Below are positions 4,316 to 63,386 of a stretch of 64,000 bases of DNA, piece by piece; the stretch's first letter is position 1, and each line of letters opens with the position of its first letter. Origin of the DNA: a virus. Location of the stretch: the IMG/VR virus record IMGVR_UViG_3300025030_000041, positions 182,116 through 246,115 of that record; one strand, given 5' to 3'. A program made the position numbers and the translations under genes. Under the pieces are notes generated by a model. The model had not been told where the DNA came from and searched no databases. It was given only the letters and a program-made list of their open reading frames with translations.

Positions 4316-4717
4316 TTATTCAGTTGGAAATAACTCCCTAATATCGTCATGATCAATAGATTTATCACCAGATACTGTTTTTAGTATGCGACCATCACCA
4401 TCTTCATCATGCTGACCAAATTTAACTTTAGCAACTGTAGTAAAATGTTCACGAATTTTAGAAAAATAATTTATTTCATCTTCATCATAATCATCAATAC
4501 TAAATGGAATAGCATATACTGGTAAAATACTATACCCTGCATCATTTTTATCATAATGCTCCCAATGGCCTTCATCAACAAAAATATAGTATATATCCTT
4601 TTTTAATTTATTTTTTTCATATTTTTGTTTTTGTTTTTCAAAGTCAGGGTCCCCATCATATTTATATTTTGGTCTAGGCGACTTAAATTCTTCAAATAAT
4701 TTTACATATTTTTTCAT
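4316..4717 (-). CDS. small acidic protein with capsid-targeting-like N-terminus
   Basis: 133 residues. The N-terminus M-K-K-Y-V-K-L-F-E-E-F resembles the K-L-F-E-Q-F start shared by several proteins in this window and the T4 internal-protein targeting peptide, but it lacks the following I/L-x-E cleavage motif. The rest is highly charged, rich in Asp and Glu, with no recognised domain. It has its own terminator downstream and an AT-rich leader with a (TA)13 tract upstream. If the motif is functional the product would be packaged in the phage head; this is inference. Confidence 0.6.
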   Translation of the reverse strand: MKKYVKLFEEFKSPRPKYKYDGDPDFEKQKQKYEKNKLKKDIYYIFVDEGHWEHYDKNDAGYSILPVYAIPFSIDDYDEDEINYFSKIREHFTTVAKVKFGQHDEDGDGRILKTVSGDKSIDHDDIRELFPTE

Positions 4718-4777
4718 TTTCTTATTATATTTTTAATTATTTATATTGAAAAATTTCAGAAAACTTATAAAAACTAG

Positions 4778-4803
4778 TATATATATATATATATATATAT
4801 ATA
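4778..4803. repeat. (TA)13 microsatellite
   Basis: Twenty-six bases of perfect TA dinucleotide repeat in the short gap between two minus-strand genes that both encode capsid-targeting-like N-termini. A tract like this can change length by slippage and could alter promoter spacing of the downstream gene at 4316-4717. Confidence 0.95.
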
Positions 4804-4830
4804 ACATTGATACACAATTAAATAAAATTT

Positions 4831-5463
4831 TCAAAAATAAACTTCTCCTTTTATATCAACTATGCCTCTTATTTCTTCTTCTGTAAATTTCTTCACATTA
4901 TCGATAATCATAAAATCTCCTTTAACTATCTTAGGAGCTCCTTCTATACTAGTTATAATATTATAAGAACACTTAAAATCTCCATTAACTATCGTAGGAG
5001 CTCCTACTAGACTAGTTATATCATTAGTAGAACAACTAAAATCTCCATTAGATATAGTAGGGCCGCCTTCTAGACTAGTTAACTTATTATGAAAACAACT
5101 AAAATCTCCATTAGATATAGTAGGAGATCCTTTTAAACTAGTTAATCCATTAAATGAACAATTAAACTCTCCAGATACTTCTTCTAAATTTAATTCTTTT
5201 AAAATATCACCATTTATTCTAACACCACCTATTATTACTTTAATATCCTTAAATTCTTTTACATTAGTGTTATTTATACTAATAAATTCATTAAAATCTT
5301 TAGATACATATATTTGGTCTTTAGTATACCCTTTATTTAGGTATGGAATAAGTAAGTCATCCCATCTTTCTTTAAGTCTTCTTGGTATAAATATATCTTT
5401 AGCACTAAGTTTAGGAGCTTCTTCTTTGAGTATAAATTGTTCAAATAGTTTTATATGTTTCAT
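4831..5463 (-). CDS. repeat protein with capsid-targeting-like N-terminus (paralogue of 27121-27963)
   Basis: 210 residues. It begins M-K-H-I-K-L-F-E-Q-F-I-L-K-E-E, an excellent match to the T4-type capsid-targeting motif with an L-x-E cleavage site. Residues about 20-50 (S-A-K-D-I-F-I-P-R-R-L-K-E-R-W-D-D-L) are almost identical to the protein at 27121-27963. The remainder is a tandem of about 22-residue units of the form L-T-S-L-x-G-x-P-x-I-x-N-G-D-F-x-C, a leucine-rich-like solenoid. Four to five units are present here and more in the paralogue. Function unknown; the repeats suggest binding rather than catalysis. The stop of the upstream gene (5460) overlaps its start by four bases. Confidence 0.7.
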   Translation of the reverse strand: MKHIKLFEQFILKEEAPKLSAKDIFIPRRLKERWDDLLIPYLNKGYTKDQIYVSKDFNEFISINNTNVKEFKDIKVIIGGVRINGDILKELNLEEVSGEFNCSFNGLTSLKGSPTISNGDFSCFHNKLTSLEGGPTISNGDFSCSTNDITSLVGAPTIVNGDFKCSYNIITSIEGAPKIVKGDFMIIDNVKKFTEEEIRGIVDIKGEVYF

Positions 5464-7370
5464 TTCTTAAATTCTCTTTTAACAAAACTATAAGTATTAA
5501 TATTTTCAGGTTTTATAAAAATTTCAGTTTCAGTAGGTCTATTAACTAATGTGAAGCTATTACCTTTATCTTCTATAAATCCATTAAATTTTGCAGCAGA
5601 ATACACAATTTCCCCATTTTTAGTCATATCATAAACTTTATATACTGAATCTTTTATTAAATTATCTTCCATATTACGTGATTCTTTAGAAAACGCTAAG
5701 TAATCATTATTATTTTGAAATTTTGAAGAAGACTTTTCATCAATACTTTCATTTTCTTTTTCCGGTACATTATACCCTTTTCTTTTAGCATATGAATAAG
5801 CTATTGCAATAGCTTGTTGTTGAGGGTATCCTTCATGCCTTAATTTAGAAATCTTTTTACTTATATAATCTTGAGCATCTTTACTTACTTCATCTAATTT
5901 AGAAACAGTAGGATTACTCATTTTATTTAAGTAATCATCAAAACTTAATATTAATTTATCATCTTTATGTGGTTCAAACCCACCTTCAATATTTGTTTTT
6001 TTCACTATTTTTTTAGGAATAGACATAGGCTCAACTTTTCCTGGATCTAATACTTTATTATTTTTTTCAGCTAATATCTCGTCTTTTTCAACTTGTGTAA
6101 ATCCAGCTTTATTAATTAAGTGTTTAACTACATCTTGATTATGCTTCGATAATACATTTAAATTAGGTATAGATAAAGTATCTCCACTATAAACGAAATT
6201 AAATTTCTTATTCATTCCCTTAAGAGTTTTAAGAGAATCTAATAATTTTTTAAAGTATTCGTCATTCATATTATTAGATTCATTATATGTTAATTCATTT
6301 ATTTCGGCGTCATCTTCATTTAATTTTTTCTTTTTTATAGGTTGAAATTGGTCTCCACTTCCAGCGGTAGTTCTAGTTGGTGCAATAGGATCTCCTTGAC
6401 CAACTAAAGATCCAGGAGTTTGAGCTCCATCTGGGGCGCCCTCCTCATTAAGAAGTTTAGGTACAGTAAAAGAAAAAGCCCCTTTAACTTTACTAATAGT
6501 TTCTTGAGCTCCTTTTAAAATTTTAGGGTCTAATGTTCCTAAAGTTTTTTTAATATTACTTCCTAATGTATTTTGTTTTGCAGCAAATGAAGTGTCTTTA
6601 GTATCAAATTTAAATCCTTTATCTGATTTTTTTATTCCAAATAAATCTGCAACTTTCTTTTTAGAATCATCAGTATCAGCTTCATTTAAATCAATAGGAG
6701 TTTCTACTAAATCTTTAATTGCGTCTTCTCCAGGTTGTTCTATTTTAGTATCATATTTTATTAAGTCACTATTAGTTTCAATATTTGGGCTTATTAATTT
6801 AATAGAATGTACTAATTTATTTAAATCATTAAAATACCCAAACGTTGGATTGCCATATTCTAAATCAATTTTAGAATTAAATGAATATACAACTTTTCCA
6901 TCCTCTACATTTACATAAACTACAAAGTCATATATATCATTTTTTCCATTAATCCCAAATTGCATAGAATTTTCTAATTCTGGGTATAACCCAGGTTCAT
7001 CAATTTCATATCCAGCTTCTTTAAATTTAGTTTGTATAGTCTTTATTAATTCCAATAGTTTATCCTTAGGATATTTGCCATCTTCAGATAATCTATTTAA
7101 TAAATCCTCGTCATACCTAGTATTTTCAAAAAAGAATTCTTCTTTAATTTCTTTAGTATTTTTTTGAAAAATATCTTTAGGTATATTAATATTAGTATTA
7201 ATTAGTAATATATCACAAGAATCTTCATTTTCTTTTAATAAAGAGATTTCAGTATCTTTTTCTATAGCTTCAAGTAAATTATTTTTTTTTATTACAAAAG
7301 ATTTTGTAACTTTAAAAATTCTATCTACATTTTTATCATGATTTAAACCTTGTATATGTTTAATTTTCAT
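5460..7370 (-). CDS. large virion-associated protein with 'HEGYPQQQAIAIAYS' motif
   Basis: 636 residues. Most is low-complexity and charged, with Pro/Gly-rich linkers (about 310-360). Around residues 510-545 is I-S-K-K-I-S-K-L-R-H-E-G-Y-P-Q-Q-Q-A-I-A-I-A-Y-S, a short helical motif that recurs in proteins of many large phages, often head or structural proteins. The last 60 residues form a small beta-rich domain. Function is unknown; a head or internal structural role is inferred from the motif and from the neighbouring capsid-targeting-like genes. It is translated just upstream of the repeat protein with a four-base overlap. Confidence 0.55.
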   Translation of the reverse strand: MKIKHIQGLNHDKNVDRIFKVTKSFVIKKNNLLEAIEKDTEISLLKENEDSCDILLINTNINIPKDIFQKNTKEIKEEFFFENTRYDEDLLNRLSEDGKYPKDKLLELIKTIQTKFKEAGYEIDEPGLYPELENSMQFGINGKNDIYDFVVYVNVEDGKVVYSFNSKIDLEYGNPTFGYFNDLNKLVHSIKLISPNIETNSDLIKYDTKIEQPGEDAIKDLVETPIDLNEADTDDSKKKVADLFGIKKSDKGFKFDTKDTSFAAKQNTLGSNIKKTLGTLDPKILKGAQETISKVKGAFSFTVPKLLNEEGAPDGAQTPGSLVGQGDPIAPTRTTAGSGDQFQPIKKKKLNEDDAEINELTYNESNNMNDEYFKKLLDSLKTLKGMNKKFNFVYSGDTLSIPNLNVLSKHNQDVVKHLINKAGFTQVEKDEILAEKNNKVLDPGKVEPMSIPKKIVKKTNIEGGFEPHKDDKLILSFDDYLNKMSNPTVSKLDEVSKDAQDYISKKISKLRHEGYPQQQAIAIAYSYAKRKGYNVPEKENESIDEKSSSKFQNNNDYLAFSKESRNMEDNLIKDSVYKVYDMTKNGEIVYSAAKFNGFIEDKGNSFTLVNRPTETEIFIKPENINTYSFVKREFKK

Positions 7371-7381
7371 TTAATTAAATA

Positions 7382-7552
7382 TTATTTTTTAAATGGTTCT
7401 TTAATATTATCTTGGCTTTTTTGCCAATCACTATATGTTTTTACCCAAAAATTGCGTTTAAAATTTTTAGTTATTAAACTCGGAACATCATGAGAAGTAG
7501 TTTCAGGATGAGGTAAAATCGCTATTTTAGTTTTATCAGTTATTTCGTTCAT
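7382..7552 (-). CDS. small hypothetical protein
   Basis: 56 residues, ATG at 7552, starting M-N-E-I-T-D-K-T-K-I-A-I-L-P-H-P-E. It is preceded by an AT-rich leader containing ATAAATAAATAA (about 7557-7570), the candidate late promoter motif, and lies eleven bases upstream of the 636-residue gene. The upstream gene ends in a strong terminator, so this gene probably begins a transcript. No domain recognised. Confidence 0.6.
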   Translation of the reverse strand: MNEITDKTKIAILPHPETTSHDVPSLITKNFKRNFWVKTYSDWQKSQDNIKEPFKK

Positions 7553-7583
7553 GATATTATTTATTTATTATTTTCAAATAAAA

Positions 7584-7605
7584 AAGGCAGAGTTTAGTCT
7601 GCCTT
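7584..7605 (-). terminator. intrinsic terminator for the minus strand
   Basis: AAGGCAGA (7584-7591) pairs with TCTGCCTT (7598-7605), loop of six, followed on the minus strand by six T. It closes the transcript of the 755-residue gene at 7633-9900. Confidence 0.85.
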
Positions 7606-7632
7606 AAAAAAATTAAAGTTTTATTTTTTTCT

Positions 7633-9900: not shown

Positions 9901-9962
9901 TATTAATATGTATTTTTATATTATTTTTATTTATTTGAAATTTTTTATTAAAAAATAAAAAA

Positions 9963-10718: not shown

Positions 10719-10746
10719 TTAAATTATTTATTTAAAAGGCAAAGAA

Positions 10747-11085: not shown

Positions 11086-11095
11086 GATATTATTA

Positions 11096-12267: not shown

Positions 12268-15219
12268 TCAACATTTCGACGAGCCACAATCCGCACATTT
12301 TTGGCACCCTTCTTCTAATATAATATTAGAGCTTCCACAATTACTGCATTTTTCACCAGTTAATTCTTTATTTACAATATATTTTTTAATAGCTCGGCCT
12401 ATCGCTTTACTAAATGCAACAATTGTACCATGAGATTTACTTAATTGTTCATATACAAAATTAATATCTGCCCCATGGCGAAGTGAAGTCGAGATCATTC
12501 TCGTTAAAGCTTCCTGTTCATCTGTTTCAAAATGAGCTCTTATATCATCAATTATTAATCCATCTTCTAATTCTAAATCATATCTTCCCTGTTTTACTTT
12601 TGCTAATTTTCCAGATTTAATTTTAGTTGGTATATGAATAGATTTAGGTCTAAACGAAAATACTTCATACGGATCTCCTTCTAATAAACCGATTATAACT
12701 ATCCATTTTTTACCTTCTGCTGTAATATGATGTATATCACAAGGTAATTCTTTAGGTCTTCTAGGAGAAGTCGTTTTTTGAATTTTAATATTATCTTTTT
12801 TAGAATCCTCTTTACTTATTAATACACCAGTTCTTGACCCAGCCCGGTATACAGTAATACCCTTTAAACCTAATTCCCAAGCCGTCATATAGATTTCACC
12901 AACTTTTTCTATAGAAGTATCTTCAGGTAAGTTACATGTTGATGAAATTGAATGTGTTATATATTTTTGGCATATTGATTGTAATTTTAGTCTATTTAAC
13001 CAATTAATTTCTTCAGCTGTGGATTTATAATATGGACTATCTTCGACTTTAGTTTTTCCAGTTATTTCTTTCCATAATTTAAATTTAGGATGTAGTACCT
13101 CATAATGCTGCCATTTATCTCCAGATTGATCTGTAAAATCTATTTTTATATCTTTATCAGAGGTATTTACTTTTTTCCTACGTGTATAAGATAACATAAA
13201 TACTGGTTCTATTCCAGATGAAGTTTGAGTTAGCATAGAAACTGATCCAGTTGGAGCTGTCGTAGATATTGATACATTTCTACGACCATATTTCATCATT
13301 CTAGTATAAACATCTGGTAATTCTTGTTTAAGCATTTGAACAAAATGTGAGGTTTCTTCTATATCAATATTAAATCCAGTAAAGCTACCCCTTTCAATAG
13401 ACATATCAATAGATGAATTAAATTCAGCTTCACATTTAGTTTTCATTATTTTATCAACTATATTTAAAGCTTCACTAGAATCAAATTTAATATTTAATGC
13501 TGCAATAGTGTCTGCTAGTGCAGTAAATCCTAATCCAGTTCTTCTTCCTGCTTTGCCATTATCATATAGGGCTTTCCATGTTCGTAGTTCTACGTCTTTT
13601 ATGTAATCTGGTTCAGAATCAGTTTCAATTTTGTTTAATATTTTTTCTATAGACTCTAATTCTAAATCTACTAAATCATCCATTAATCGTTGCGCATCAT
13701 ATGTAGTTTCATAAAACTTTGTAAAATTAAATTTAGCAGTTTTAGTAAATGGATTATCTATAAATCCAAATAAATTAATAGATATTAATCTACAAGAATC
13801 ATTTCCACCCATTGCAATTTCTGAACAATTATGAACTAATATATTATTAGCAAAGAAATTATGATTATCCTTAACTTTTATATCATAAACATCTTCATTT
13901 TGAATAATATTTATAGATTTAATTTTACCATTTTTAATAGTTTTTAATGAATTAATTTTAATTAAAATATTTGTTTTAGTTAATAAAGACGCTTCAATCC
14001 ATCCTTCTTTTTTAGTATATACTCTATGATCAGGGGTTAATTTAAGTTTTTCTCCATCTTCTAATTCAAGTTCTATAATATTTGCATTTTTTCTAGTAAG
14101 CATTCCAGCTTCAATTTCTTTATATTCAAGCTTATTATTTTTTGTATTATAACTTAAAGTTTCAAGATAATCCCCTTGTATTATCCTTTTAATAACTTCT
14201 TTTAATTTTAATTTACCAATATTAGTTTCTATAATGGCGTCACCGGTTATACATGGGTTTGTTGTTATATTTTTATATTCAGGATAAACTGAAGATGTTG
14301 AATAATTATGTTGTCTATCCCAAAAAATTAATCCAGGCTCTGCTGTATTTCTAGCGGATGTAACTATAGTATTCCATAGGTCTTTAGCTTTTATAGTTTT
14401 TGTAATTTTAGGTTTTCCAGTAATTGGCCATCTTAATGTAAAATCTAAATCATTCTTTACGGCATTCATAAATTCGTTAGTAAGTTTAATGCTAATATTT
14501 GCACCAGTTACTTTAGATAAATCATTTTTAATAACTGCAAATTCAGGAGAATTTATATGTGATACATCAATTGAACAAATTAGAGCGCCACGCCGTCCAT
14601 TTTGAGCAACTTCCCTAGTTGTATTAGAAAATCTTTCCATAAAACTAATTGCCCCAGTGGAAGTACCTGCTGAATTAGTCACAGAATATCCTTCTGGCCG
14701 TAAACTAGAAACGTCTAAGCCTACCCCGCATCTTCGTTTCATTAGTTGTACTAATTGCTGATCTGCAAACATTATACCTCCGTATGAATCATATAGTTCA
14801 GGTAGTACTATACAATTACTTAATGAAGCTATAGTAAATGGATTTCCTAGTGACGCCATTATACTACCTTGTGGTACAATATACTTAAAATGATCAAAAT
14901 ATTCAAAAATTATTTCTTCAGTTAATTCTTTTCGCCTTTGCCCATATTCACTTATTTTTTTTAATTTTCCATTTAAATTAGTTTTATATTTAGATTCTAT
15001 TCTTGCAAATTCCTTAGCCATTCTTCGATGAGTGTCAGCCGGAGTCATTTCATAAAAATCGCCTTTAGAATCTTTTAAACAATATTTAGAAATCCAAACT
15101 TCTGTTGCAAGGTCATCACCATTAAAATATTCCAAACATTTTTCTTTAATTATATTTTTAGGTATTGTTTTTAATTCTGTAATAACTAGGTCTGTATCTT
15201 TTTCAACAATTTCTTCCAT
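12268..15219 (-). CDS. nrdJ: adenosylcobalamin-dependent (class II) ribonucleotide reductase precursor with intein
   Basis: 983-residue precursor; 841 residues after removal of a 142-residue intein. The enzyme reduces ribonucleotides to deoxyribonucleotides for phage DNA synthesis. Visible landmarks are the N-terminal ATP-cone-free start, the substrate loop with N-T-A-E-P-G, the catalytic N-P-C-S-E-I motif (interrupted by the intein), the A-P-T-G-S-V-S motif, and a C-terminal C-S-N-C-G / C-Q-K-C-A-D-C zinc-ribbon tail typical of NrdJ, whose cysteines re-reduce the active site. No separate small subunit is seen, in keeping with a class II enzyme that needs host B12. It is followed by a homing endonuclease gene, a frequent neighbour of reductase genes in T4-like phages. 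Confidence 0.9.
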   Translation of the reverse strand: MEEIVEKDTDLVITELKTIPKNIIKEKCLEYFNGDDLATEVWISKYCLKDSKGDFYEMTPADTHRRMAKEFARIESKYKTNLNGKLKKISEYGQRRKELTEEIIFEYFDHFKYIVPQGSIMASLGNPFTIASLSNCIVLPELYDSYGGIMFADQQLVQLMKRRCGVGLDVSSLRPEGYSVTNSAGTSTGAISFMERFSNTTREVAQNGRRGALICSIDVSHINSPEFAVIKNDLSKVTGANISIKLTNEFMNAVKNDLDFTLRWPITGKPKITKTIKAKDLWNTIVTSARNTAEPGLIFWDRQHNYSTSSVYPEYKNITTNPCITGDAIIETNIGKLKLKEVIKRIIQGDYLETLSYNTKNNKLEYKEIEAGMLTRKNANIIELELEDGEKLKLTPDHRVYTKKEGWIEASLLTKTNILIKINSLKTIKNGKIKSINIIQNEDVYDIKVKDNHNFFANNILVHNCSEIAMGGNDSCRLISINLFGFIDNPFTKTAKFNFTKFYETTYDAQRLMDDLVDLELESIEKILNKIETDSEPDYIKDVELRTWKALYDNGKAGRRTGLGFTALADTIAALNIKFDSSEALNIVDKIMKTKCEAEFNSSIDMSIERGSFTGFNIDIEETSHFVQMLKQELPDVYTRMMKYGRRNVSISTTAPTGSVSMLTQTSSGIEPVFMLSYTRRKKVNTSDKDIKIDFTDQSGDKWQHYEVLHPKFKLWKEITGKTKVEDSPYYKSTAEEINWLNRLKLQSICQKYITHSISSTCNLPEDTSIEKVGEIYMTAWELGLKGITVYRAGSRTGVLISKEDSKKDNIKIQKTTSPRRPKELPCDIHHITAEGKKWIVIIGLLEGDPYEVFSFRPKSIHIPTKIKSGKLAKVKQGRYDLELEDGLIIDDIRAHFETDEQEALTRMISTSLRHGADINFVYEQLSKSHGTIVAFSKAIGRAIKKYIVNKELTGEKCSNCGSSNIILEEGCQKCADCGSSKC
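13828..14253 (-). other. mini-intein in the reductase active site
   Basis: Residues 323-464 of the precursor. It begins with Cys (C-I-T-G-D-A-I-I) and ends V-H-N before the +1 Cys, the classic intein splice junctions. Inside are block-B-like T-P-D-H-R-V-Y-T and block-F-like D-V-Y-D-I-K-V-K-D-N-H-N-F-F-A. At 142 residues it has only the splicing domain and no endonuclease domain. The insertion separates Pro from the Cys of N-P-C-S-E-I, the cysteine that forms the thiyl radical, so unspliced enzyme should be inactive. Confidence 0.9.
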
Positions 15220-26313: not shown

Positions 26314-27143
26314 ATTATTTATTTCAATTAATTTCTAATAAATCAAATGGATCAATAATTGATTTAAATTCATTTTTAAATAGGACAGATATTTGTCAAA
26401 ATAAAATACAAAGCCTAAATAATAAATTATCTCTAATATTTACATTAAAAGATTCTCGTGAATTATCTATTTTTACAGAGACCCTAGTTTCTAATTTATA
26501 TAATGCTAAAATAACAAATAGAAATACTATTTTTTATGATATTAAAAGAAATAATGAATTTATTAGTGTAAAAAGTAGTATTAATTCTACTAATTTAGAA
26601 AATACTTTAAATACTACTTCTACTAAAATTACATCATTAATATACGCTGCATATGGCTTAGATACAATTAATAATAATATATTAAAAATATTAAATGACT
26701 ATACTGTATTTGAATCAGATTCAAACTATTGCAAAATAAAAGATATTCTAAATAAAGAACTCGGAGTCCTATCTAATAGGACTTTTTCTCTTTCTGCCGT
26801 TTGGTTTAATAAAAAAAGAAATACTATTTATATTATTAAAACTAAACATATTGATTCAACTACTCTATTAAATGAATCACTTAAAGAATGGCATAATAAA
26901 ATAAAATTTAAGAAAAAACATAACCGTAATAAAACAGATATACGAATATCGTATAGTGCAGTTTTGAACATTTTTAATGGAATTAGAGATAGATTTGAAA
27001 TTATTTTATTAAATAGTAAAATAAATAAAAATAAATTAATTAAACTTCAAAAAATAAAAAACGAGATAAATAATACAATATATGACATATACGACGAGAA
27101 AAAATTAAAAAAAATAAAGAATGAGTTATATAAAATTATTTGA
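26310..27143 (+). CDS. hypothetical protein, basic C-terminus
   Basis: 277 residues. Start overlaps the upstream stop (ATGA), so the two are translationally coupled. Residues about 85-115 (F-Y-D-I-K-R-N-N-E-F-I-S-V-K-S-S) have a E-x-K-like spacing, but no convincing nuclease core is visible. The C-terminus is very Lys/Asn/Ile rich. The family is not recognised. Confidence 0.6.
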   Translation: MNYLFQLISNKSNGSIIDLNSFLNRTDICQNKIQSLNNKLSLIFTLKDSRELSIFTETLVSNLYNAKITNRNTIFYDIKRNNEFISVKSSINSTNLENTLNTTSTKITSLIYAAYGLDTINNNILKILNDYTVFESDSNYCKIKDILNKELGVLSNRTFSLSAVWFNKKRNTIYIIKTKHIDSTTLLNESLKEWHNKIKFKKKHNRNKTDIRISYSAVLNIFNGIRDRFEIILLNSKINKNKLIKLQKIKNEINNTIYDIYDEKKLKKIKNELYKII

Positions 27144-27963
27144 ACAATTTATATCTGAAGAAGAAACTCCTAAGCCAAGCGCTAAAGATATATTTATACC
27201 TAGAAGGCTTAAAGAAAGATGGGATGACTTATTACTTCCTTACTTAAATAAAGGTTATACTAAAGAACAAATATTTGTAGTGAAACCAATTGATGAAACT
27301 TTTATTATAAATATGGGTAATATTGAGAAATTTAAGAATATTAAAGTTATAATTGGTAATATTGAAATAAAAAGAATAAGTGATTTAAGTATATTGAATA
27401 TAGAAGAAATATCAGGAGATTTTGATTGTGCTGTTACTGATCTAATTAATTTAAAAGGGGTACCTAAAATAATAAATGGAAATTTTTATTGCTATCGTAG
27501 TCATTTAACTAGTTTAGTTGATGGTCCTAATATAGTTACTGGAGATTTTAATTGTTCTGGTAATTACTTAACTAATTTAAAAGGAGTACCTAAAATATCT
27601 AATGGAGATTTTAATTGTGCTGCTAATAATTTAACTAGTCTAATTGATTGCCCTGAAAAAATTAATGGAGATTTTTATTGTTCTAATAATAACTTAACTA
27701 ATTTAGATGGGTCACCAAAAATAGTTAAAGGAGAATATTGGTGTAATAATAACTATTTATCTAATTTGGAAGGTGTACCTAAAATAATAAATGGAGATTT
27801 TCATTGTTCTTATAATTATTTGACTAGTCTTGAAGGAGGGCCTGTAGAGGTTAAAGGAGATTTTTATATTGAAGAAAATGACCCAAAATTTACAGAAGAT
27901 ACAGTAAGAGAATTTGTTAATGTAAAAGGCGATGTTTATTTTTTTAAAAATAATAATTATTAA
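27121..27963 (+). CDS. repeat protein with capsid-targeting-like N-terminus (paralogue of 4831-5463)
   Basis: 280 residues. Starts M-S-Y-I-K-L-F-E-Q-F-I-S-E-E-E, with I-S-E as the probable prohead-protease site. Residues about 20-50 are nearly identical to those of the 4831-5463 protein. About eight units of the L-T-x-L-x-G-x-P-x-I-x-N-G-D-F-x-C repeat follow, then F-T-E-D-T-V-R-E-F-V and V-K-G-D-V-Y-F, the same end as its paralogue (F-T-E-E-E-I-R-G-I-V). The start is inside the end of the previous gene (23-base overlap) but the conserved N-terminus supports it. Confidence 0.7.
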   Translation: MSYIKLFEQFISEEETPKPSAKDIFIPRRLKERWDDLLLPYLNKGYTKEQIFVVKPIDETFIINMGNIEKFKNIKVIIGNIEIKRISDLSILNIEEISGDFDCAVTDLINLKGVPKIINGNFYCYRSHLTSLVDGPNIVTGDFNCSGNYLTNLKGVPKISNGDFNCAANNLTSLIDCPEKINGDFYCSNNNLTNLDGSPKIVKGEYWCNNNYLSNLEGVPKIINGDFHCSYNYLTSLEGGPVEVKGDFYIEENDPKFTEDTVREFVNVKGDVYFFKNNNY

Positions 27964-27965
27964 AA

Positions 27966-28214
27966 ATGAGTTATATAAAATCTTATAAAAAATTTCATAA
28001 AATAGATGAGCTTACTAGTACATCTAACTATGAAAATAAAATATTTAAAAATGGTAAATTAATAGACTATGCTGCAATTAGTAAAGATACTGCTATAAAA
28101 ATACAGGACTTACTTGATGCTGAAAGAAATACTAGAATTTATACAGACCCAACTAGAGAATTAATTGAGAAACCCATTGGATTAAATGAGAATAGTAAAA
28201 AAAATAAAAAATGA
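27966..28214 (+). CDS. small protein with capsid-targeting-like N-terminus
   Basis: 82 residues, starting M-S-Y-I-K-S-Y-K-K-F-H-K-I-D-E, a looser version of the motif with I-D-E as possible cleavage point. The rest is charged with no domain. It is separated from the repeat protein by two bases and from the next gene by one base (stop TGA, then A, then ATG), so the three look like one operon of packaged proteins. Confidence 0.6.
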   Translation: MSYIKSYKKFHKIDELTSTSNYENKIFKNGKLIDYAAISKDTAIKIQDLLDAERNTRIYTDPTRELIEKPIGLNENSKKNKK

Positions 28215-28215
28215 A

Positions 28216-29028
28216 ATGTATAAGGTAAAATTATTTGAGCAATTTATAAATGAAGCTCTTTCTTCTAAAGAAGAAACTAAATTAAAAAAAGATTTAGAAA
28301 AAGCAGTTAAGGAATGGAAAGTATTAAATACTACATTAACTACTGAATTTAAAAAATATCAAGATTTAATTAAAGATGTATCTGAAAAAGAATCTAAAGT
28401 TAAAAGTGATATTCTATCTATGATGGATACTCTTGGTAAAACTAAACATGAAGTCGGAGATTTAATAGTATCATTTACTAGAGGATATACTCGATCTACT
28501 ATTCCATATAAAGAAATTATAGAAATAATAGAGAAAAAAGTTAATGGTATTCTCCGAGCTTTTATTGCTAGAATTATAAAAGAAAAAACTAGAACTACTG
28601 AAATTAAAGCGACAATCGATATTAAAAAGAAAAAAGAATTAAATGAAGGTTTAAAACAAATATGGGATAAATTTATATCTTTTGTATCTAAAGGAATAGA
28701 GTCTTTAAAAGGCTATATGTCAAAATATAGTGATGCAATTGAAGACCTTAAAGATTTAGCTAAGTCTTTACCAAAAAACGCAAAAAGAACAGTTAATGAA
28801 AATGAAGATTATGACAGATTTGGTGTAGCTCAAAGTTTAACTACCTTACTACAAGGAGATGGTGTTGACTTTGAACCATTAGATGAAAATGATCCATTAT
28901 GGACTAAATTAGGTCTTACTGATTTTCCAGTAAATCCACCAGAGGATATTGAAGACTTTGTAGAAAATCTTTCAGACGACCAATTTAATATTATTAAAGA
29001 TATTCTTAATGAAGAGGGGTATCTCTAA
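28216..29028 (+). CDS. helical protein with capsid-targeting-like N-terminus
   Basis: 270 residues from the ATG at 28216; an upstream in-frame ATG at 28186 would lie in the end of the previous gene and would bury the motif, so the inner start M-Y-K-V-K-L-F-E-Q-F-I-N-E-A is chosen. I-N-E before Ala fits T4 gp21 protease cleavage. Residues about 20-115 form a helical, Lys/Glu-rich segment with V-G-D-L-I-V-S-F-T-R-G-Y near 80; the end is acidic (D-F-E-P-L-D-E-N-D-P). Function unknown. A strong terminator follows. Confidence 0.7.
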   Translation: MYKVKLFEQFINEALSSKEETKLKKDLEKAVKEWKVLNTTLTTEFKKYQDLIKDVSEKESKVKSDILSMMDTLGKTKHEVGDLIVSFTRGYTRSTIPYKEIIEIIEKKVNGILRAFIARIIKEKTRTTEIKATIDIKKKKELNEGLKQIWDKFISFVSKGIESLKGYMSKYSDAIEDLKDLAKSLPKNAKRTVNENEDYDRFGVAQSLTTLLQGDGVDFEPLDENDPLWTKLGLTDFPVNPPEDIEDFVENLSDDQFNIIKDILNEEGYL

Positions 29029-45746: not shown

Positions 45747-45998
45747 ATGAAAAACTTTATTAAGTCATTTAGTGATTTTATAATTGAAAATAAACAAAAT
45801 ATATTTTCAAATGTTAAAACTGATGTATCTAAAAAAATTAAGTATTGGGAAGAACGAATTGCAGGAAATGTCTTTGCACTTAAAGTTTTAAATAGTATTA
45901 AAAAACAAGGTAATAAAGCAACAACTAGGCAGATTAGTTATTTAGATAGAGCTGCTACAGGACAAGACAAACCTGAGTATTATCATCCTAAAAATTAA
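45747..45998 (+). CDS. small protein with capsid-targeting-like N-terminus
   Basis: 83 residues, starting M-K-N-F-I-K-S-F-S-D-F-I-I-E-N-K, which matches K-x-F-x-x-F-I-x-E with I-I-E as cleavage site. The rest is basic, with W-E-E-R-I-A-G-N-V-F-A-L-K-V near 35. Function unknown. Confidence 0.6.
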   Translation: MKNFIKSFSDFIIENKQNIFSNVKTDVSKKIKYWEERIAGNVFALKVLNSIKKQGNKATTRQISYLDRAATGQDKPEYYHPKN

Positions 45999-47035: not shown

Positions 47036-47719
47036 ATGTCATTTATACGTAATGTACAAAACGTTGGATTAGGGCGAGGAATATATAAAGCAACAATAGA
47101 CTCATTAATTGAGCTTAAAACTATTAAAGCTGGGTATGGTATAGATGTAGTTGAATATGATGCATATTTAGAGCTTAATTTAAATGGAGCAATTGGAACA
47201 TCTGGATTTAGTGGTCATTCTGGAGAAACTGGATATTCAGGTTTTAGTGGATTTAGTGGGTATAGTGGTAAGTCTGGCTATTCTGGATTTAGTGGAATAA
47301 GTGGGTATAGTGGAAAGCCTGGACCAAACGGATTACCTGGGTCGGCTGGAACTTCTGGATATTCAGGATATTCGGGGTATAGTGGACAAGCTGGTACAAG
47401 TGGATATTCAGGGTGGAGTGGAAAATCAGGATTTAGTGGAGGTAGTGGATATTCCGGATATAGTGGACCAACTGGAGCAGTTGGAGCAGTTGGATTAAGT
47501 GGATATTCTGGTTATTCTGGTTATGCAAGTGGATATATTTTTACTCAAGGTACTCCATCTGCTACTTGGTCAATTGCCCATGCTTTAGGTAAATTTCCAG
47601 GAGTATCTATGGTTAATACAATAAATGAATTAATAGAAGGAGATGTTACTTATACTGATTCTAATAATATTATAGTACAATTTTCAACTGCAATTGATGG
47701 TAAAGCCTATTTAACTTAA
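47036..47719 (+). CDS. collagen-like fibre protein
   Basis: 227 residues. Residues about 55-170 are Gly-X-Y triplets, mostly G-Y-S and G-F-S with some G-K-P, interrupted near residue 95-100 by G-P-N-G-L-P-G-S. Triplet tracts like this form a collagen triple helix and are common in tail fibres. The last 55 residues (S-I-A-H-A-L-G-K-F-P-G-V) form the same class of small C-terminal tip domain as the other fibres. Preceded by the motif AAATAAATAAATA at about 47001-47013. Confidence 0.85.
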   Translation: MSFIRNVQNVGLGRGIYKATIDSLIELKTIKAGYGIDVVEYDAYLELNLNGAIGTSGFSGHSGETGYSGFSGFSGYSGKSGYSGFSGISGYSGKPGPNGLPGSAGTSGYSGYSGYSGQAGTSGYSGWSGKSGFSGGSGYSGYSGPTGAVGAVGLSGYSGYSGYASGYIFTQGTPSATWSIAHALGKFPGVSMVNTINELIEGDVTYTDSNNIIVQFSTAIDGKAYLT

Positions 47720-51604: not shown

Positions 51605-52408
51605 CTAGATTGGTAGTTGAATTTTGTTTAATAATTGATTTGATACATGTGTATAAATTTCCGTGGTTTTTACTGAGGAGTGCCCTAAAATTCTTTGAAT
51701 AATTCGTAAATCTACTCCTGACTCTAATAATGCAGTAGCGGAAGAGTGTCTTAAGATATGGAAATGATGATTTGAATCTATGTATTTTTTAAATATTTGT
51801 TGGCATGACCTGACTGAATATAGATTAGAGAATTGGCCATTAAATAGATGTTCTTTTGGTTTATACTGTATGTAATAGTTTCTTAACAAATCAAGAACAA
51901 TTTGCGATAAGGGTACTATTCTGTCCTTTCGCCCTTTAGCATTTTTTATGTGAATTATCATTCGTTTACTATCAATGTCTTCTATTTTTAAATTCACAAC
52001 TTCAGATACCCTTAGCCCTATTGAGTACGCTAGAGTTAGTATTGTTCTGTGCTTTAGGTTCTCAATTTTTGAAAGTTGACTTAAAATAAAGTCTTTATCT
52101 ATCACTTGAGGTAATCTCTTTTCATTTTTAGCATATTCAATAAATCTAAATTTGAATTTTTGATGAATTGTTAATTTGTAGAAAAGTTTAATAGCACTAT
52201 GTTTGTGTTTTTGGCTATTTATGCAATTAGCCGAAATTAAATAATCTTTAATTCTCTCTTGTGGAATATGTGATGGCGTATTGTATTCTTTTTCAAAATA
52301 TGTCATGAATAATACTATTTGGGAATAATAGTTATTAATACTTGACTTAGAATAATTTTTAAGAATTAAGTCTTTTTTAAATTGGTTCGCATACTTTAAA
52401 ATATTCAT
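51605..52408 (-). CDS. tyrosine recombinase/integrase
   Basis: 267 residues, the size of XerC/XerD-like enzymes. Catalytic residues visible: Arg133 (G-L-R-V-S-E), Lys159 (G-R-K-D-R hairpin), His217 and Arg220 (H-I-L-R-H), His243 (L-G-H-S-S) and the nucleophile Tyr252 (I-Y-T-H). The N-terminal SAM-like core-binding domain is at 1-85. The extra helix found between the conserved patches in integron integrases of the IntI type is not seen. The gene lies at the edge of an array of small genes and palindromes, so it may recombine those sites. Whether it acts like an integron integrase, an invertase or a phage integrase cannot be decided here. Confidence 0.85.
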   Translation of the reverse strand: MNILKYANQFKKDLILKNYSKSSINNYYSQIVLFMTYFEKEYNTPSHIPQERIKDYLISANCINSQKHKHSAIKLFYKLTIHQKFKFRFIEYAKNEKRLPQVIDKDFILSQLSKIENLKHRTILTLAYSIGLRVSEVVNLKIEDIDSKRMIIHIKNAKGRKDRIVPLSQIVLDLLRNYYIQYKPKEHLFNGQFSNLYSVRSCQQIFKKYIDSNHHFHILRHSSATALLESGVDLRIIQRILGHSSVKTTEIYTHVSNQLLNKIQLPI

Positions 52409-57598: not shown

Positions 57599-57618
57599 AC
57601 TTAAATATTTAAAATTAT

Positions 57619-57915: not shown

Positions 57916-57947
57916 TATGTTTGGCATTACTCAATAAATAATAGTAT

Positions 57948-58319: not shown

Positions 58320-58960
58320 ACTTTATTAAGCACATAATATCAGCATTTAATCCACTATCAGTTTCAAAATATGAAAACTCATATGATATTGTATTTGATG
58401 ATACCTCTATTATAAAAATAGAAGTTGATGAGGTGGAGTCTTCTAAATCTGAAATAATTTCACTTATAGGAAGTAAAAGTGAGGCTTTTCAAAAATATTT
58501 TTATAGTTATACACCTAGTGATAACCATGTATTATATTTAGACGAATTATATAGTGAAATTGGAGATTCAGATATATTTAATGATAATGCTGACGGAACT
58601 AAGTTAATACTTATTAATAATATATCAGGTGGTCTAATTATAGAAGAATTAATGTATAATATACTATTCGGTTATAAAAAAGTAATAGAAAATACAATAG
58701 AAACTTTTATTATAACAGATGGATTGCCTTTAAATAATAATACTGGGCTAGACGATTTCGGACCATATATATATAAAATTATAAATAATAAAGTTGTATA
58801 CTGGGATGGCTGGATTAATAAAGATTTCTATTTTAAAATTAAAGGACTATCCGAGAATACCTCTTATATAATAACTGAAGAATTTATTGATATTACTTAT
58901 ATTAAATTAACACCAGACGAAATATCTAATTTAACATTTAAAAGGGCATTTTTACAATAA
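58316..58960 (+). CDS. hypothetical protein
   Basis: 214 residues, M-N-F-I-K-H-I-I-S-A-F-N. An amphipathic N-terminus, Asp/Glu-rich middle and a beta-rich C-terminus with Y-W-D-G-W-I-N-K-D. Coupled to the upstream gene. Not recognised. Confidence 0.6.
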   Translation: MNFIKHIISAFNPLSVSKYENSYDIVFDDTSIIKIEVDEVESSKSEIISLIGSKSEAFQKYFYSYTPSDNHVLYLDELYSEIGDSDIFNDNADGTKLILINNISGGLIIEELMYNILFGYKKVIENTIETFIITDGLPLNNNTGLDDFGPYIYKIINNKVVYWDGWINKDFYFKIKGLSENTSYIITEEFIDITYIKLTPDEISNLTFKRAFLQ

Positions 58961-58978
58961 GATAAAATAAATAACTAT

Positions 58979-59533
58979 ATGGAAATATTTGATTTTAATA
59001 AAGCCGTTTTAACTACTAAATATACAAGTGATTCTTATGAAATTTCAGAAGTTGGATACGACAACTCTAAACTTGAAATTTTAAAAAATACATTTTCAAC
59101 AGTTGGGTTTTTGCCTTTCTTAAAAAATAATGAAGGAATTATTAATGAGGTTATTGTTTCAAAAATACCTAATTTTTATAATACTGAATTAGAATATGCT
59201 CTTCTTACTGAAACACAAGAAGACTTAGATAATGATGACTTATCTACTGCTCAACGCGGTCTATTTGAAGAAACCACTTTACAAATTCTAGATATTAATA
59301 AATGGTATTTATTAGGCCATATAAAAATTAATAAGTTTATTAATAAAACTATACCAATTTATGCAGTTGACGTTACTGGTATTAATATTCCATTAAGAGC
59401 CGCCCCAACTAGTGATACATTAGAATCAACTCAAGAAATAGTAAAACTAAAAATTAATGAAATACTTAAAGGTAATATTCAGGATACCTTAATTTTATCA
59501 AGTTGTTTTCTTCTTTATTCTTATTTTAAATAA
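58979..59533 (+). CDS. Nudix-like hydrolase
   Basis: 184 residues. A-Q-R-G-L-F-E-E-T-T-L-Q-I (Arg93, Glu97, Glu98) matches R-E-U-x-E-E-x-G-U of the Nudix box except that Glu after Arg is Gly and the Gly is Thr; L-L-G-H-I and I-Y-A-V-D-V-T-G follow as in the fold. Nudix enzymes remove nucleoside diphosphates from various substrates, including mRNA caps and ADP-ribose. The degenerate box leaves catalysis unsure. Preceded by AAAATAAATAA at 58964-58974. Confidence 0.6.
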   Translation: MEIFDFNKAVLTTKYTSDSYEISEVGYDNSKLEILKNTFSTVGFLPFLKNNEGIINEVIVSKIPNFYNTELEYALLTETQEDLDNDDLSTAQRGLFEETTLQILDINKWYLLGHIKINKFINKTIPIYAVDVTGINIPLRAAPTSDTLESTQEIVKLKINEILKGNIQDTLILSSCFLLYSYFK

Positions 59534-59578
59534 AACATTTTAATCCTTCATAAATATAAATTATTAAAAAACTATAAA

Positions 59579-60223
59579 ATGGAAATAGTACAAACTAAAA
59601 AAATATCTGAAGACGTTGATTTATCATTAGTTGATCGTAAAAGTCTTTTAAGCGAAATTGAAGAAATTCAAAAAGAAATAAAAGAAAGACAAGATGTAGT
59701 TATTGAAAAAGCTAAGTTATTAGAAAAAACGATAGATTGGGTAGCTCAGCGAAAAGTTGATACTTTAAAAGATATAGACTATACTAATTTTACAAATGAG
59801 GACTGGGAGTGGATAATGTCAGAAGGGCAAATTGACGATAGAAGTGGTATTAAACATGAATTTAAAAAAAGTATTTTGTTTGGCAAATTTGGATTTATTA
59901 TAGAAAAATTCTGGAAATTTACAAATCAGTCATGCTTAGTAATTGGAAAAGTATTTTTTAAAGTACCAGATAAATTTGCTGAAGATAGAATTAAAGATAT
60001 TTGTAAACATTATAAGACTCTTAATTCTTTCCATGACCAAGAAAATGTTCATATTTTTCAAATACAAGATAAGCAGAATGGTAAAGCTGGAGTATATTAC
60101 TTTGAGTATAATCAATCTAATAATACTGGAAGAATAACTAAGATCTATCATAATGCTACTACTGAACCAAAACCATGGAAACCCATTCTTGAAATATTAG
60201 CAGATGTTGAAAAAATATCTTAA
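59579..60223 (+). CDS. hypothetical protein with coiled coil
   Basis: 214 residues; coiled-coil start (about 10-65, E-I-E-E-I-Q-K-E-I-K-E-R-Q), then a globular alpha/beta region with E-N-V-H-I-F-Q-I-Q-D and a basic stretch. Next gene follows in six bases. Not recognised. Confidence 0.6.
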   Translation: MEIVQTKKISEDVDLSLVDRKSLLSEIEEIQKEIKERQDVVIEKAKLLEKTIDWVAQRKVDTLKDIDYTNFTNEDWEWIMSEGQIDDRSGIKHEFKKSILFGKFGFIIEKFWKFTNQSCLVIGKVFFKVPDKFAEDRIKDICKHYKTLNSFHDQENVHIFQIQDKQNGKAGVYYFEYNQSNNTGRITKIYHNATTEPKPWKPILEILADVEKIS

Positions 60224-60229
60224 ATAATT

Positions 60230-60715
60230 ATGAGTAAAGAAATACAAAAATCGACTGGTAAAGTTAAGAGTTTTAAACAATTTATAAATGAAAGTTTAAA
60301 TAGACTAACATATAAAAAATCAGTTGATACTGACAGAGTAAAAATAACAGCATTCATAGATAATAGAAAAGTTGGTACACTTTCAATGGAAGTTCTATTT
60401 GAGTCATATGACTATGAATTTAGTGATGTATTTGATGAAGATACATTTAATAAAATTTATCCAGGCAATAAAATTGTTAAAATTGAACATATTGAAGTAG
60501 ATGATAATTATAAAAATTCTGGGATTGGCTATAAATTAATGGAATATGGAATGTCATTAATGAAAAAAGATGGGTACAATCAATTCTATTTAAATGCTTC
60601 ACCTATGGGATTTAAAGGATTAAATACACCAAATTTAGTTAATTTTTATAAAAAATTTGGGTTTAACGAATTGTTAAATCAAGGAAATAATGTTTTAATG
60701 GGAGTTGTCTTTTAA
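60230..60715 (+). CDS. GNAT acetyltransferase with capsid-targeting-like motif
   Basis: 161 residues. Residues 12-20 read V-K-S-F-K-Q-F-I-N-E-S, a close match to the T4 capsid-targeting motif with I-N-E cleavage site. From about 75 the GNAT fold is visible: I-E-H-I-E-V-D-D-N-Y-K-N-S-G-I-G-Y-K-L (motif A, acetyl-CoA loop), M-E-Y-G-M-S-L-M and N-L-V-N-F-Y-K-K-F-G-F-N-E-L. This would be an enzyme carried in the capsid and delivered into the host to acetylate a protein or antibiotic-like small molecule; the substrate is unknown. Confidence 0.8.
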   Translation: MSKEIQKSTGKVKSFKQFINESLNRLTYKKSVDTDRVKITAFIDNRKVGTLSMEVLFESYDYEFSDVFDEDTFNKIYPGNKIVKIEHIEVDDNYKNSGIGYKLMEYGMSLMKKDGYNQFYLNASPMGFKGLNTPNLVNFYKKFGFNELLNQGNNVLMGVVF

Positions 60716-60782
60716 TTGAAATGTAATACTAGAACTCTTAAAATGCAGAAATTTTAAATTTTAAGTACTAATAAATCAAAAT

Positions 60783-61022
60783 ATGATAAAACTAATTAAA
60801 AGAATTATAGGCGGGTTTCGCCAGAAAACTTTATCTGTTAAATCTATCATTGCACTCGTTACTTCTAAAAATAAAAAGTTGACATATCAAGATGAAAGCT
60901 TGAGAAAGTTTGATGAATATAAAGTTATAATGACAGGAAATATAGTGGTGGCACAAGGATATGAATGCAGTAAATGTAAAATAATAAGACAGTACTATCA
61001 ACCAATTTGTAATTGCAGCTAG
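60783..61022 (+). CDS. small protein with Cys-rich end
   Basis: 79 residues; M-I-K-L-I-K-R-I-I-G-G-F-R-Q-K-T. The C-terminus reads Y-E-C-S-K-C-K-I-I-R and P-I-C-N-C, a likely zinc ribbon. Function unknown. Convergent with the next gene. Confidence 0.6.
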   Translation: MIKLIKRIIGGFRQKTLSVKSIIALVTSKNKKLTYQDESLRKFDEYKVIMTGNIVVAQGYECSKCKIIRQYYQPICNCS

Positions 61023-61049
61023 TCTATGATTTTTCTTATTTAAAAAAAG

Positions 61050-61358
61050 TTATCTAAAAAGTTTTTTATCGTTTTTTATACTCTCTTGACGCTCTGACTC
61101 AACTAAAGCATTTTTAGCTTTTTCCTCGTCATTACTATATAATTCCAAATACATTTTATATTTAGATTCTCTACTTTTATTTATATGTTCAATATCAATC
61201 AGCTCAATATTTCGTAGGTGTTCCGCTGCAAAATCTTTTCCCATTTGCTTAATTTTATTTTTCATATCATCAAGCTCGGACTTATTAATTAGCCCCTTCT
61301 TAAATTTCTTTTCGTAATCTTTAAGTACATTTTTACGTTGTTCTTTATTTAAAAGCAT
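61050..61358 (-). CDS. small helical hypothetical protein
   Basis: 102 residues, M-L-L-N-K-E-Q-R-K-N-V-L-K-D-Y-E-K-K-F-K. Entirely helical and charged. Ten bases separate it from the upstream gene at 61368. Not recognised. Confidence 0.6.
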   Translation of the reverse strand: MLLNKEQRKNVLKDYEKKFKKGLINKSELDDMKNKIKQMGKDFAAEHLRNIELIDIEHINKSRESKYKMYLELYSNDEEKAKNALVESERQESIKNDKKLFR

Positions 61359-61367
61359 AATTGTATT

Positions 61368-61607
61368 TTATTTTTGAAAAAATCTTAATTTAAAATCTTT
61401 AAATGTTTCTGTAGTAATTGTACCATCAATCTGTTTAATTCCAACATCATAAGTTGGTTTACTAATTAAATTCGATAATTCATTTACGAAATTGTCATAT
61501 GCATCTTCATTTTCGAAATTAATTGCGTTATGTAATGTTTTAGATACGTTAAGACCTATAAATAGTCTATATTTAGTAGGTTCTTCTAAAGTTTTTAAGT
61601 TAGGCAT
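61368..61607 (-). CDS. small hypothetical protein
   Basis: 79 residues: M-P-N-L-K-T-L-E-E-P-T-K-Y-R-L-F-I-G-L-N. Ferredoxin-like pattern possible. Upstream of it an 18-bp palindrome lies between this gene and the divergent gene at 61701. Confidence 0.6.
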   Translation of the reverse strand: MPNLKTLEEPTKYRLFIGLNVSKTLHNAINFENEDAYDNFVNELSNLISKPTYDVGIKQIDGTITTETFKDFKLRFFQK

Positions 61608-61642
61608 AAATACTTTTTATTTTTAATATAATAAACTCCACC

Positions 61643-61660
61643 TTTTGTTTTAAAACAAAA
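61643..61660. promoter_or_regulatory. 18-bp perfect palindrome, possible operator
   Basis: TTTTGTTTTAAAACAAAA, complete symmetry, in the 93-base gap between divergent genes. Its halves contain CAAAA/TTTTG boxes similar to promoter elements, so it could be a bidirectional regulatory site. Confidence 0.5.
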
Positions 61661-61700
61661 AATATATTTTTTAATATAACAATAAAATCGTAAGCTATAT

Positions 61701-62099
61701 ATGACAGAAAATAGATGTATTTCTGTATTCTTTACTAAAAAACATAAGCATTTTAATAAGTTAGATCTTCAAAAAACTAACAACTATGTATTAAATATTA
61801 ATCTTTTAATTAGAGAAAAACTTAATACTGAATTTTTTATTATGAATAATATACAGAGTTTTATTCTTAATATAGAAATAAAAAAATGTATAGATCGTAG
61901 TATTAATCTTAAAAACGGAAAATATGATAACTTAATATATGTAAATGATAATATGACAATTTCGTCAATACTAAATATGATTACATTTATTGAAGCAACT
62001 TATAAAAATATAAAATTTGATTATACCCTACTTGACTCTGAAAATTTGTTTAATGACATTTTAAATAAAAGAGCAGACATAAAAATTACTACAATATGA
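61701..62099 (+). CDS. hypothetical protein
   Basis: 132 residues, M-T-E-N-R-C-I-S-V-F-F-T-K-K-H-K-H. Mixed alpha/beta. The stop overlaps the start of the following small membrane protein (ATGA). Not recognised. Confidence 0.55.
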   Translation: MTENRCISVFFTKKHKHFNKLDLQKTNNYVLNINLLIREKLNTEFFIMNNIQSFILNIEIKKCIDRSINLKNGKYDNLIYVNDNMTISSILNMITFIEATYKNIKFDYTLLDSENLFNDILNKRADIKITTI

Positions 62100-62275
62100 A
62101 AAGATTTATTAAATCAATAATACTATTGCTTTATATTATTATTTTGTTTTTAGTATTCTTAGGAATTGCAATACCTACGTTTATATTAGCATATATTCAT
62201 GATGTTTTAAATACAATTATGAATTTTTTTAATACTAAAATTCAAAACATGTGTACAAAGATTAAAGATGTTTAA
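62096..62275 (+). CDS. small single-pass membrane protein
   Basis: 59 residues from ATG at 62096: M-K-R-F-I-K-S-I followed by about 25 hydrophobic residues and a polar C-terminus with Cys. Coupled to the previous gene by ATGA and ends 14 bases into the opposing ATP-grasp gene's 3' end. Could be a small holin-like or accessory membrane protein. Confidence 0.55.
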   Translation: MKRFIKSIILLLYIIILFLVFLGIAIPTFILAYIHDVLNTIMNFFNTKIQNMCTKIKDV

Positions 62276-63386
62276 CTAGGTATTTCATATATAGAATTGG
62301 GCGTTCTATGCTTTTTTCATGTATTTCTGGCATTATTTCAAATAGGGTTCTTCCAGGCCTAGCATTAATTTCTATTAAATAAATATTACCAGTTTCACCA
62401 ATTAAATAATCTAATGCTAATTCTCCTAAACTACCTATTTCTTTTTCAATTTCTTTACATATTTTTTCACTTGTATTTCGTATAGTATTAGAAATAGGTC
62501 CATCTAAATCTTCATTAAATAATTCTTTTAATAATACACTTAACTCTAATTTATTTCCGCCCGTATGCAAATTCGCAGTAATTCGATTAGCCCCGCCTAT
62601 TCTTACTCCCATACCCGTTCTTTTAATATTATTATCGCCATCTTTTTGCATAAGAACTCTTATATCAAATACTGAATCATTATATTTTTGTAAATTAATA
62701 TATTGCTGTATTAAATATTTAGCAGGATCTAATTTATAATATTTTAGTATTATATCATTAACTTTATTTTCTAATTCATTATCACTAATGCTTATTTCTT
62801 TATCTTCATATTTAAGAGTATAACCCGGTGCATTATATTTTATATAAATTATTCCAGCTCCTTGACTTCCAAAAATTGGTTTTAAAATACAAGATTCATT
62901 ATAATTTAACATTTTAAGTAAATTATTAGAACTATAAATATCAGCAATTGGCATTTTTATTCCTTTAGATACTAAAAACTTTTGAGATTTTAATTTATCA
63001 TTAGCTAATTTAATAACATTAACCTCTGTGAATAACTTAACTCCTGCATTTTCCAGTTTTGTAAGAAAAGATAATGGAGTAACTTTAGACCTATTATAAA
63101 TAACAGCTGGTAATTTAGTTTCCATATCTACCCATTTATCATTAATTAAAAATGATGCTCTGTTAATCTTAGAAAAATCTTCATTTAAATCATTATGTGA
63201 AAATACACACACGTTAAGACTATTCTGCTGGCCTATCTTAACCAATTTTCTAAAATACTTCTCTTGCTCAAAGTACCTATTATATTGCGTTCCAATTTTT
63301 CTAACAGCAATAATTCCAATTAATGGAGCATTTGATAAATTTACAGCTTCGAATAACTTAAATTCATTATATGAATAGAATTTCAA
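62262..63386 (-). CDS. ATP-grasp ligase, YheC/YheD type, with capsid-targeting-like N-terminus
   Basis: 374 residues. After M-K-F-Y-S-Y-N-E-F-K-L-F-E-A (a targeting-like start with L-F-E cleavage site), the protein has I-I-A-V-R-K near 26, then P-A-V-I-Y-N-R-S-K near 95, and the ATP-grasp signature L-K-P-I-F-G-S-Q-G-A-G (about 170) with D-I-R-V-L-M-Q-K-D (about 243), R-V-G-G-A-N-R-I and I-N-A-R-P-G-R (about 350). These patterns match YheC/YheD, an ATP-grasp family first seen in spore-coat proteins, whose ligase targets are unknown. A packaged ligase that modifies a host component is a reasonable guess. Start at 63386 follows an AT-rich divergent region. Confidence 0.75.
   Translation of the reverse strand: MKFYSYNEFKLFEAVNLSNAPLIGIIAVRKIGTQYNRYFEQEKYFRKLVKIGQQNSLNVCVFSHNDLNEDFSKINRASFLINDKWVDMETKLPAVIYNRSKVTPLSFLTKLENAGVKLFTEVNVIKLANDKLKSQKFLVSKGIKMPIADIYSSNNLLKMLNYNESCILKPIFGSQGAGIIYIKYNAPGYTLKYEDKEISISDNELENKVNDIILKYYKLDPAKYLIQQYINLQKYNDSVFDIRVLMQKDGDNNIKRTGMGVRIGGANRITANLHTGGNKLELSVLLKELFNEDLDGPISNTIRNTSEKICKEIEKEIGSLGELALDYLIGETGNIYLIEINARPGRTLFEIMPEIHEKSIERPILYMKYLVKHL

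Follow-up and report, generated by a model that had tools for sequence, protein, structure and literature searches.

A probable T4-type capsid-targeting sequence on a large set of unrelated proteins encoded by a metagenome-derived virus

The stretch of DNA studied here (the window, 64,000 nucleotides) covers positions 182,116–246,115 of the 246,115-bp IMG/VR record IMGVR_UViG_3300025030_000041, a metagenome-derived virus, and encodes eight proteins for which the original prediction had proposed a common N-terminal tag resembling the capsid-targeting sequence (CTS) of phage T4. The whole record was also analysed, its open reading frames (ORFs) being called mechanically (318 proteins), and the N-termini were evaluated by comparing their leave-one-out (LOO) profile scores with those of 59,676 windows inside the proteins of the record. 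All eight proteins are indeed encoded in the window, and six of them carry the tag unambiguously, with LOO scores exceeding those of every internal window. On the minus strand, these are a 133-residue protein (4316–4717, tag 4679–4717) beginning with MKKYVKLFEEFKSPRP and a 210-residue repeat protein resembling leucine-rich repeat (LRR) proteins (4831–5463, tag at about 5425–5463; MKHIKLFEQFILKE/E, where the slash here and below marks the predicted cleavage position), which is one of 17 paralogues. The plus strand encodes a 280-residue LRR-like repeat protein (27121–27963, tag 27121–27159; MSYIKLFEQFISE/E), a 270-residue protein (28216–29028, tag 28216–28254; MYKVKLFEQFINE/A) that starts at an internal ATG within the ORF listed as 28186–29028, an 83-residue protein (45747–45998, tag 45747–45788; MKNFIKSFSDFIIE/N) and a 161-residue GNAT acetyltransferase (60230–60715, tag 60230–60292) with the N-terminal extension ...KVKSFKQFINE/S, its Pfam Acetyltransf_1 match (4.7e-7) starting at residue 34. 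The evidence is moderate for the 374-residue ATP-grasp ligase of the YheCD type (62262–63386, minus strand, TTG start, tag 63348–63386; MKFYSYNEFKLFE/A; LOO E of about 0.2 genome-wide), which matches Pfam ATPgrasp_YheCD over residues 148–370 (8.7e-55), so that both enzyme identifications made in the original prediction were correct. In all, seven of the eight proteins have a convincing tag of the K-[LS]-[FY]-x-x-F-I-x-E type. The eighth protein (82 residues, 27966–28214, plus strand; MSYIKSYKKFHKIDE/L, with the motif IKSYKKFH) adjoins two good carriers and is itself a doubtful one, not significant alone in the genome-wide LOO comparison (E of about 3).

The genome-wide scan clearly showed that the tag extends far beyond the window. 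The strict pattern K.[FY].[EQ]F[ILV], taken from the T4 tag and sought in the first 30 residues of each protein, occurs in 24 of the 318 proteins of the record (0.44 expected), compared with three internal occurrences in 65,391 positions and a maximum of two in shuffled N-termini. When homologues were collapsed, eight families still matched the strict pattern vs. 0.44 expected (Poisson p=2e-8). The 35 candidate carriers, compared by the sequence behind the tag, fell into 18 clusters: 17 carriers belong to a single repeat family, two form a pair and the remaining 16, of which a few are weak, stand alone; the carriers are thus unrelated behind the motif, just as had been supposed from the eight listed proteins. 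Record-wide, about 33 proteins of at least 14 unrelated families are convincing carriers, and these 14 or more families have [FY]xxF at the N-terminus, well beyond chance. A chance origin of the tag is rejected by the N-terminal enrichment together with the LOO scores. Examples of tags of 13–20 residues are MKHIKLFEQFISE and MKTLSKLYEAKLNE.

The conserved positions coincide with those mapped in T4. In T4 IPIII, targeting depends chiefly on residues 4 and 7, and residues 8 and 10 govern processing; with Asp at residue 10, the protein is still targeted but no longer processed. The propeptides of IPII and IPIII are identical, and T4-like phages have been suggested to use the tag for packaging varied proteins (PMC9026906). 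The key residues of MKTYQEFIAE are Y, F, I and E; in the present carriers, these correspond to conserved [FY], F, [IL] and E at identical spacing. Of 17 family representatives, 9 have an [ILV]xE in exact register and 13 have one within 15 residues; among 150 internal look-alikes, the corresponding counts are 4 (p=6e-8) and 22. In two carriers, at record positions 63676 and 95362, Asp occupies the equivalent of T4 position 10, which predicts packaging without cleavage at that site. As a positive control, the T4 genome yielded three matching ORFs, two starting with MKTYQEFIAE and the third being gp61.1 (MKTFKEFIKED). This 54-residue hypothetical protein (L053:18966-19130) is itself a candidate capsid-targeted protein of T4.

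The record also encodes the head machinery that such a tag would serve. A search for the prohead protease revealed an S77 family member (PF03420, 1.7e-10, record 88639–89136; 1.6e-8 at the protein level, above the cut-off). The protease ORF comprises 681 residues (record 87100–89145), and its long, repetitive C-terminal part is coiled-coil-like, with a repeated YLAENINN, so that it probably represents a protease–scaffold fusion; the gene at the same position is annotated as “prohead core scaffolding protein and protease” in phage PTm1 and as “prohead core protein serine protease” in MA9V-2. The gene for a gp23-type major capsid protein follows directly (PF07068, 1.3e-34), its product having a plausible cleavage site GALFE/S, and the 7 kb upstream of the protease gene contain seven carriers amid structural genes.

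The bodies behind the tag are diverse, and certain enzymes recur. When 15 records were searched for the ATP-grasp family PF08443 and 7 for PF07478, five enzymes of four phages came to light, and all five, the ligase at 62262 included, start in a tag-like manner, the starts of the two longer RimKs being looser matches judged by eye. The RimK of a 348-kb IMG/VR record starts with MAGKVLDFWSFLNE/A, two RimKs of a 161-kb record with MMPQIKNLDSFLSE/G and MNKIKLFEEFIREE, and an R2K-type enzyme of the uncultured phage LR756500 with MKFIKPYEEF. No relative of the window ATP-grasp enzyme itself was found in IMG/VR or among GenBank phages. RimK-like ATP-grasp proteins of about 490 residues are encoded in phage genomes at L129:4577-6034 and L142:7098-8588; the former, from the 348-kb record, has a C-terminal segment with KFDTGNGAKS that resembles the DTG motif of RimB (PMC11957791), suggesting a possible RimK–RimB fusion. 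As for the GNAT at 60230, its orthologue L217 from a different virus contig is 74% identical and has retained KSFKQFVNE, the two distantly related GNATs L219 and L220 are devoid of the N-terminal extension, and both GNATs of MA9V-2 have tag-like or LNE-containing leaders. In relatives, the tag is also borne by, among others, an adenylate kinase, a DUF2201 metallopeptidase, a GDPD protein and LRR proteins. In the record itself, a tagged 231-residue protein (110689–111384) without a Pfam match contains a candidate HExxH motif of the zinc metallopeptidase type, HTIIHEIGHAIDNY, for which single-sequence structure prediction was uninformative (pLDDT 33). The 17-member LRR-like family, scattered across the record and often found between structural genes, has no Pfam match and, for the model of the protein at 27121, a weak Foldseek similarity to LRR domains (probability 1.00, E of about 2e-3, TM of about 0.45). 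The ORF 28186–29028, when compared with the phiKZ internal head proteins (PF12699), remained below the threshold (E=7.5e-4, 19.2 bits, cutoff 27).

Judged by the capsid protein, the nearest named phages are the uncultured 462-kb phage LR756500, the Lak phages, Tenacibaculum phages pT24/PTm1, the cultured phage PAU, and phages of Flavobacterium (MaF61) and Chryseobacterium (MA9V); a search of IMG/VR for relatives of the major capsid protein by peptide patterns returned a single near-identical contig. An N-terminal profile trained solely on IMGVR_UViG_3300025030_000041 matched 15 proteins in the 348-kb record and 17 in LR756500, with about one expected in each, and 3–5 in the 161-kb record, while the five phages without a detected S77 protease (SPO1, phiKZ, phi38:1, MaF61 and crAss001) were at the chance level. 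Alignment of 41 carriers from relatives gave the consensus MKxIKxFExFxNE, after which almost nothing is conserved. In PAU and MA9V-2, the patterns were set after inspection and then tested against the internal background. The PAU dialect, MKTLxxLYE[AS]KLNE[AS], is found in 19 proteins vs. 0.08 expected, most of them clustered with the portal, protease, scaffold and capsid genes; MA9V-2 shows starts of the MKNFFSFINEA type. De novo discovery of N-terminal motifs by expectation maximisation gave likelihoods clearly above those of shuffles for the record, PAU and the two large relatives; this evidence is supportive only, as the listed sites are noisy and likelihoods slightly above those of shuffles were also obtained for other genomes, among them crAss001 and phiKZ.

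Taken together, the results suggest that the common N-terminus is probably a T4-type CTS acting on an unusually large cargo set, a reading first proposed from the window and supported by nearly every sequence test run. By analogy with T4, we infer scaffold binding, cleavage, ejection and effector action as follows. Late in infection, the carriers would bind the prohead scaffold core via the exposed [FY]-x-x-F within MK-x-[IV]-K-x-[FY]-x-x-F and be trapped within the closing gp23-type shell; cutting after the following [IL]-x-E by the S77 prohead protease would then free the mature protein beside the packaged DNA. In the next infection, the cargo would be ejected along with the DNA and be immediately active, like T4 IPI and Alt, which are ejected in this way and act at once. 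The bodies of such cargo would be unrelated to one another: besides several unknowns, they would comprise LRR-like binding proteins, a GNAT, an ATP-grasp ligase and a candidate HExxH metallopeptidase, and we infer their effector roles from domain types.

The tag may instead target proteins to the prohead core where most of them are consumed as core or scaffold helpers during head assembly, and are not injected effectors at all. Several LRR-like carriers do lie among head and baseplate genes, gp152 of PAU, annotated as “scaffolding”, is also tagged, and T4 IPIII is reported to influence head assembly (PMC9026906). However, the ATP-grasp, GNAT and adenylate kinase domains have no obvious role in assembly, and the carriers differ strongly between phages, as the T4 internal proteins do, which makes this explanation rather unlikely as an account of most carriers, although it is the strongest of the competing ones.

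Several observations do weigh against a T4-type CTS delivering cargo into the head. The carrier at 4316 (FEEFKSPR) has no [IL]xE cleavage site nearby and would be targeted, yet uncut at the usual place; the matches at 27966 and at record 26252 are weak; and the test for cleavage sites in exact register gave no significant result for the 348-kb relative (p=0.15), partly because shorter variants such as YQIFE/A are used there. The S77-encoding pT24, PTm1 and Lak-A2 revealed no motif in these tests, so that either the system is lacking in them or its dialect is unrecognisable, and the presence of S77 as the sole predictor of the tag was rejected on this ground. The PAU proteins gp142 and gp154, both with the dialect tag, are annotated as “internal capsid protein”, an annotation of unstated basis, and the proposed link of the tag to heads is sequence-based. 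This last point, together with the three S77-encoding relatives devoid of the motif, leaves room for a sorting signal directed to some other phage structure (tail, membrane or DNA compartment) that merely resembles the T4 tag. We consider such a signal improbable, since the residues and the cleavage register equal those of the mapped T4 signal, the carriers neighbour the protease and capsid genes, the PAU annotation points to the capsid, and phages without a detected S77 protease give no signal.

The structure and the DNA of the tag agree with its being a selected, removable CTS. AlphaFold predicts a confident solenoid for the protein at 27121, most of its body having pLDDT above 90, and a disordered tag region (blocks 1-30, about 45–50); a disordered N-terminus on a well-folded body is what is expected of a removable tag. 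In LR756500, one LRR protein is devoid of the tag found in its paralogues and starts with MEYNDKNGLELIAELAKVS, at which point one paralogue reads MKYIKEYEDFINE/AKRTKLNGLELIAKLAKVS. At the DNA level, the tags of unrelated carriers are 0.595 identical vs. 0.583 for synonymous-random coding (95% range 0.564–0.602); being no more alike than synonymous chance, they point to selection on the peptide as what maintains the motif. A different picture is seen in 4316 and the unrelated carrier at record 95362, which have in common 165 bp of upstream and tag DNA (87% identity) diverging at the tag end, a module that shows a possible route of tag spread. The repeat-family paralogues are similar in DNA from about the start codon on and hardly upstream, as if they had moved as bare ORFs. 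Pure paralogy was rejected, as the bodies are unrelated and the tag DNA, save for this one module, is at synonymous-random identity; a carrier-specific promoter was rejected too, TATAAATA and other upstream words not being notably enriched before carriers. That gene starts were simply duplicated or recombined in recent times, leaving a common N-terminus without a function of its own, as the 165-bp module and the fact that half of the carriers are 17 paralogues of one repeat family might suggest, is hardly credible, given the merely random synonymous similarity among the other unrelated carriers and the recurrence of the motif in distant phages, where codons and dialects differ.

Beyond this record, we tentatively propose that huge phages of the T4 lineage, several from Bacteroidota-type hosts, might encode manifests of dozens of head-packaged effectors in lineage-specific CTS dialects, with ATP-grasp ligases (RimK, R2K, YheCD; ribosome- or protein-modifying) and GNATs as recurrent time-zero cargo; for this broad generalisation the arguments in favour fall a little short of those against. 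Relative to the open-access literature, the concept is already known, and what is new is the scale, the lineage dialects, including that of a cultured phage, and the recurrent ATP-grasp/GNAT cargo. If true, the N-terminus alone would reveal the packaged and injected proteins among the hundreds of unknowns in huge phages, so that a problem of annotation would become one of reading off a list, and would point to host-modifying enzymes active before any phage gene is expressed; it would also provide ready-made tags for loading cargo into non-T4 phage heads. As PAU is in culture, the claim is open to direct testing.

Apart from the carriers, the window encodes a ribonucleoside reductase-like protein (12268–15219) with an apparent intein, recognised by eye from a Cys...HNC junction around ITTNPCITGDAIIET to NILVHNCSEIAMG. 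At 47036–47719, near tail-fibre-like genes, lies a gene for a protein with a long collagen-like GFSGYSG repeat, and at 51605–52408 a tyrosine-recombinase-like gene, with a similar second one at record 77209–78156.

As regards known systems, jumbo-phage enzymes of the same classes as here, GNAT and R2K ATP-grasp, have already been proposed to modify host proteins (Iyer et al. 2021, PMC7824862), and passages of that paper also report GNAT domains in injected polyvalent proteins. Its passages found by term search make no reference to a capsid-targeting N-terminus, whereas the single-domain enzymes here are tagged; the tag would add the timing of their action, namely at injection. Sphingomonas (Sphingobacterium) phage PAU resembles the present virus in having about 20 small head-cluster proteins with a common N-terminus and [IL]xE-type sites, and differs in using another dialect and in the absence of Pfam domains from the carriers scanned. 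The head ejection proteins of phiKZ/SPN3US likewise have N-terminal head-targeting propeptides cut by the prohead protease, and many proteins are ejected; several propeptides there exceed 100 residues (PMC5694885), whereas those predicted here have 13–21 residues and a T4-like consensus. The closest likeness is to the gp21-processed CTS of T4, a short N-terminal aromatic-x-x-Phe-[IL]-x-E on unrelated bodies in a genome with S77 protease and gp23 capsid genes. In contrast to T4, the aromatic/Phe pair here is shifted inwards by about three residues (MKHIKLFEQFISE vs. MKTYQEFIAE), the protease gene bears a long C-terminal coiled-coil-like extension, the putative cargo includes a large LRR-like paralogue family as well as ATP-grasp and GNAT enzymes, and the carriers number about 33 vs. 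a handful in T4.

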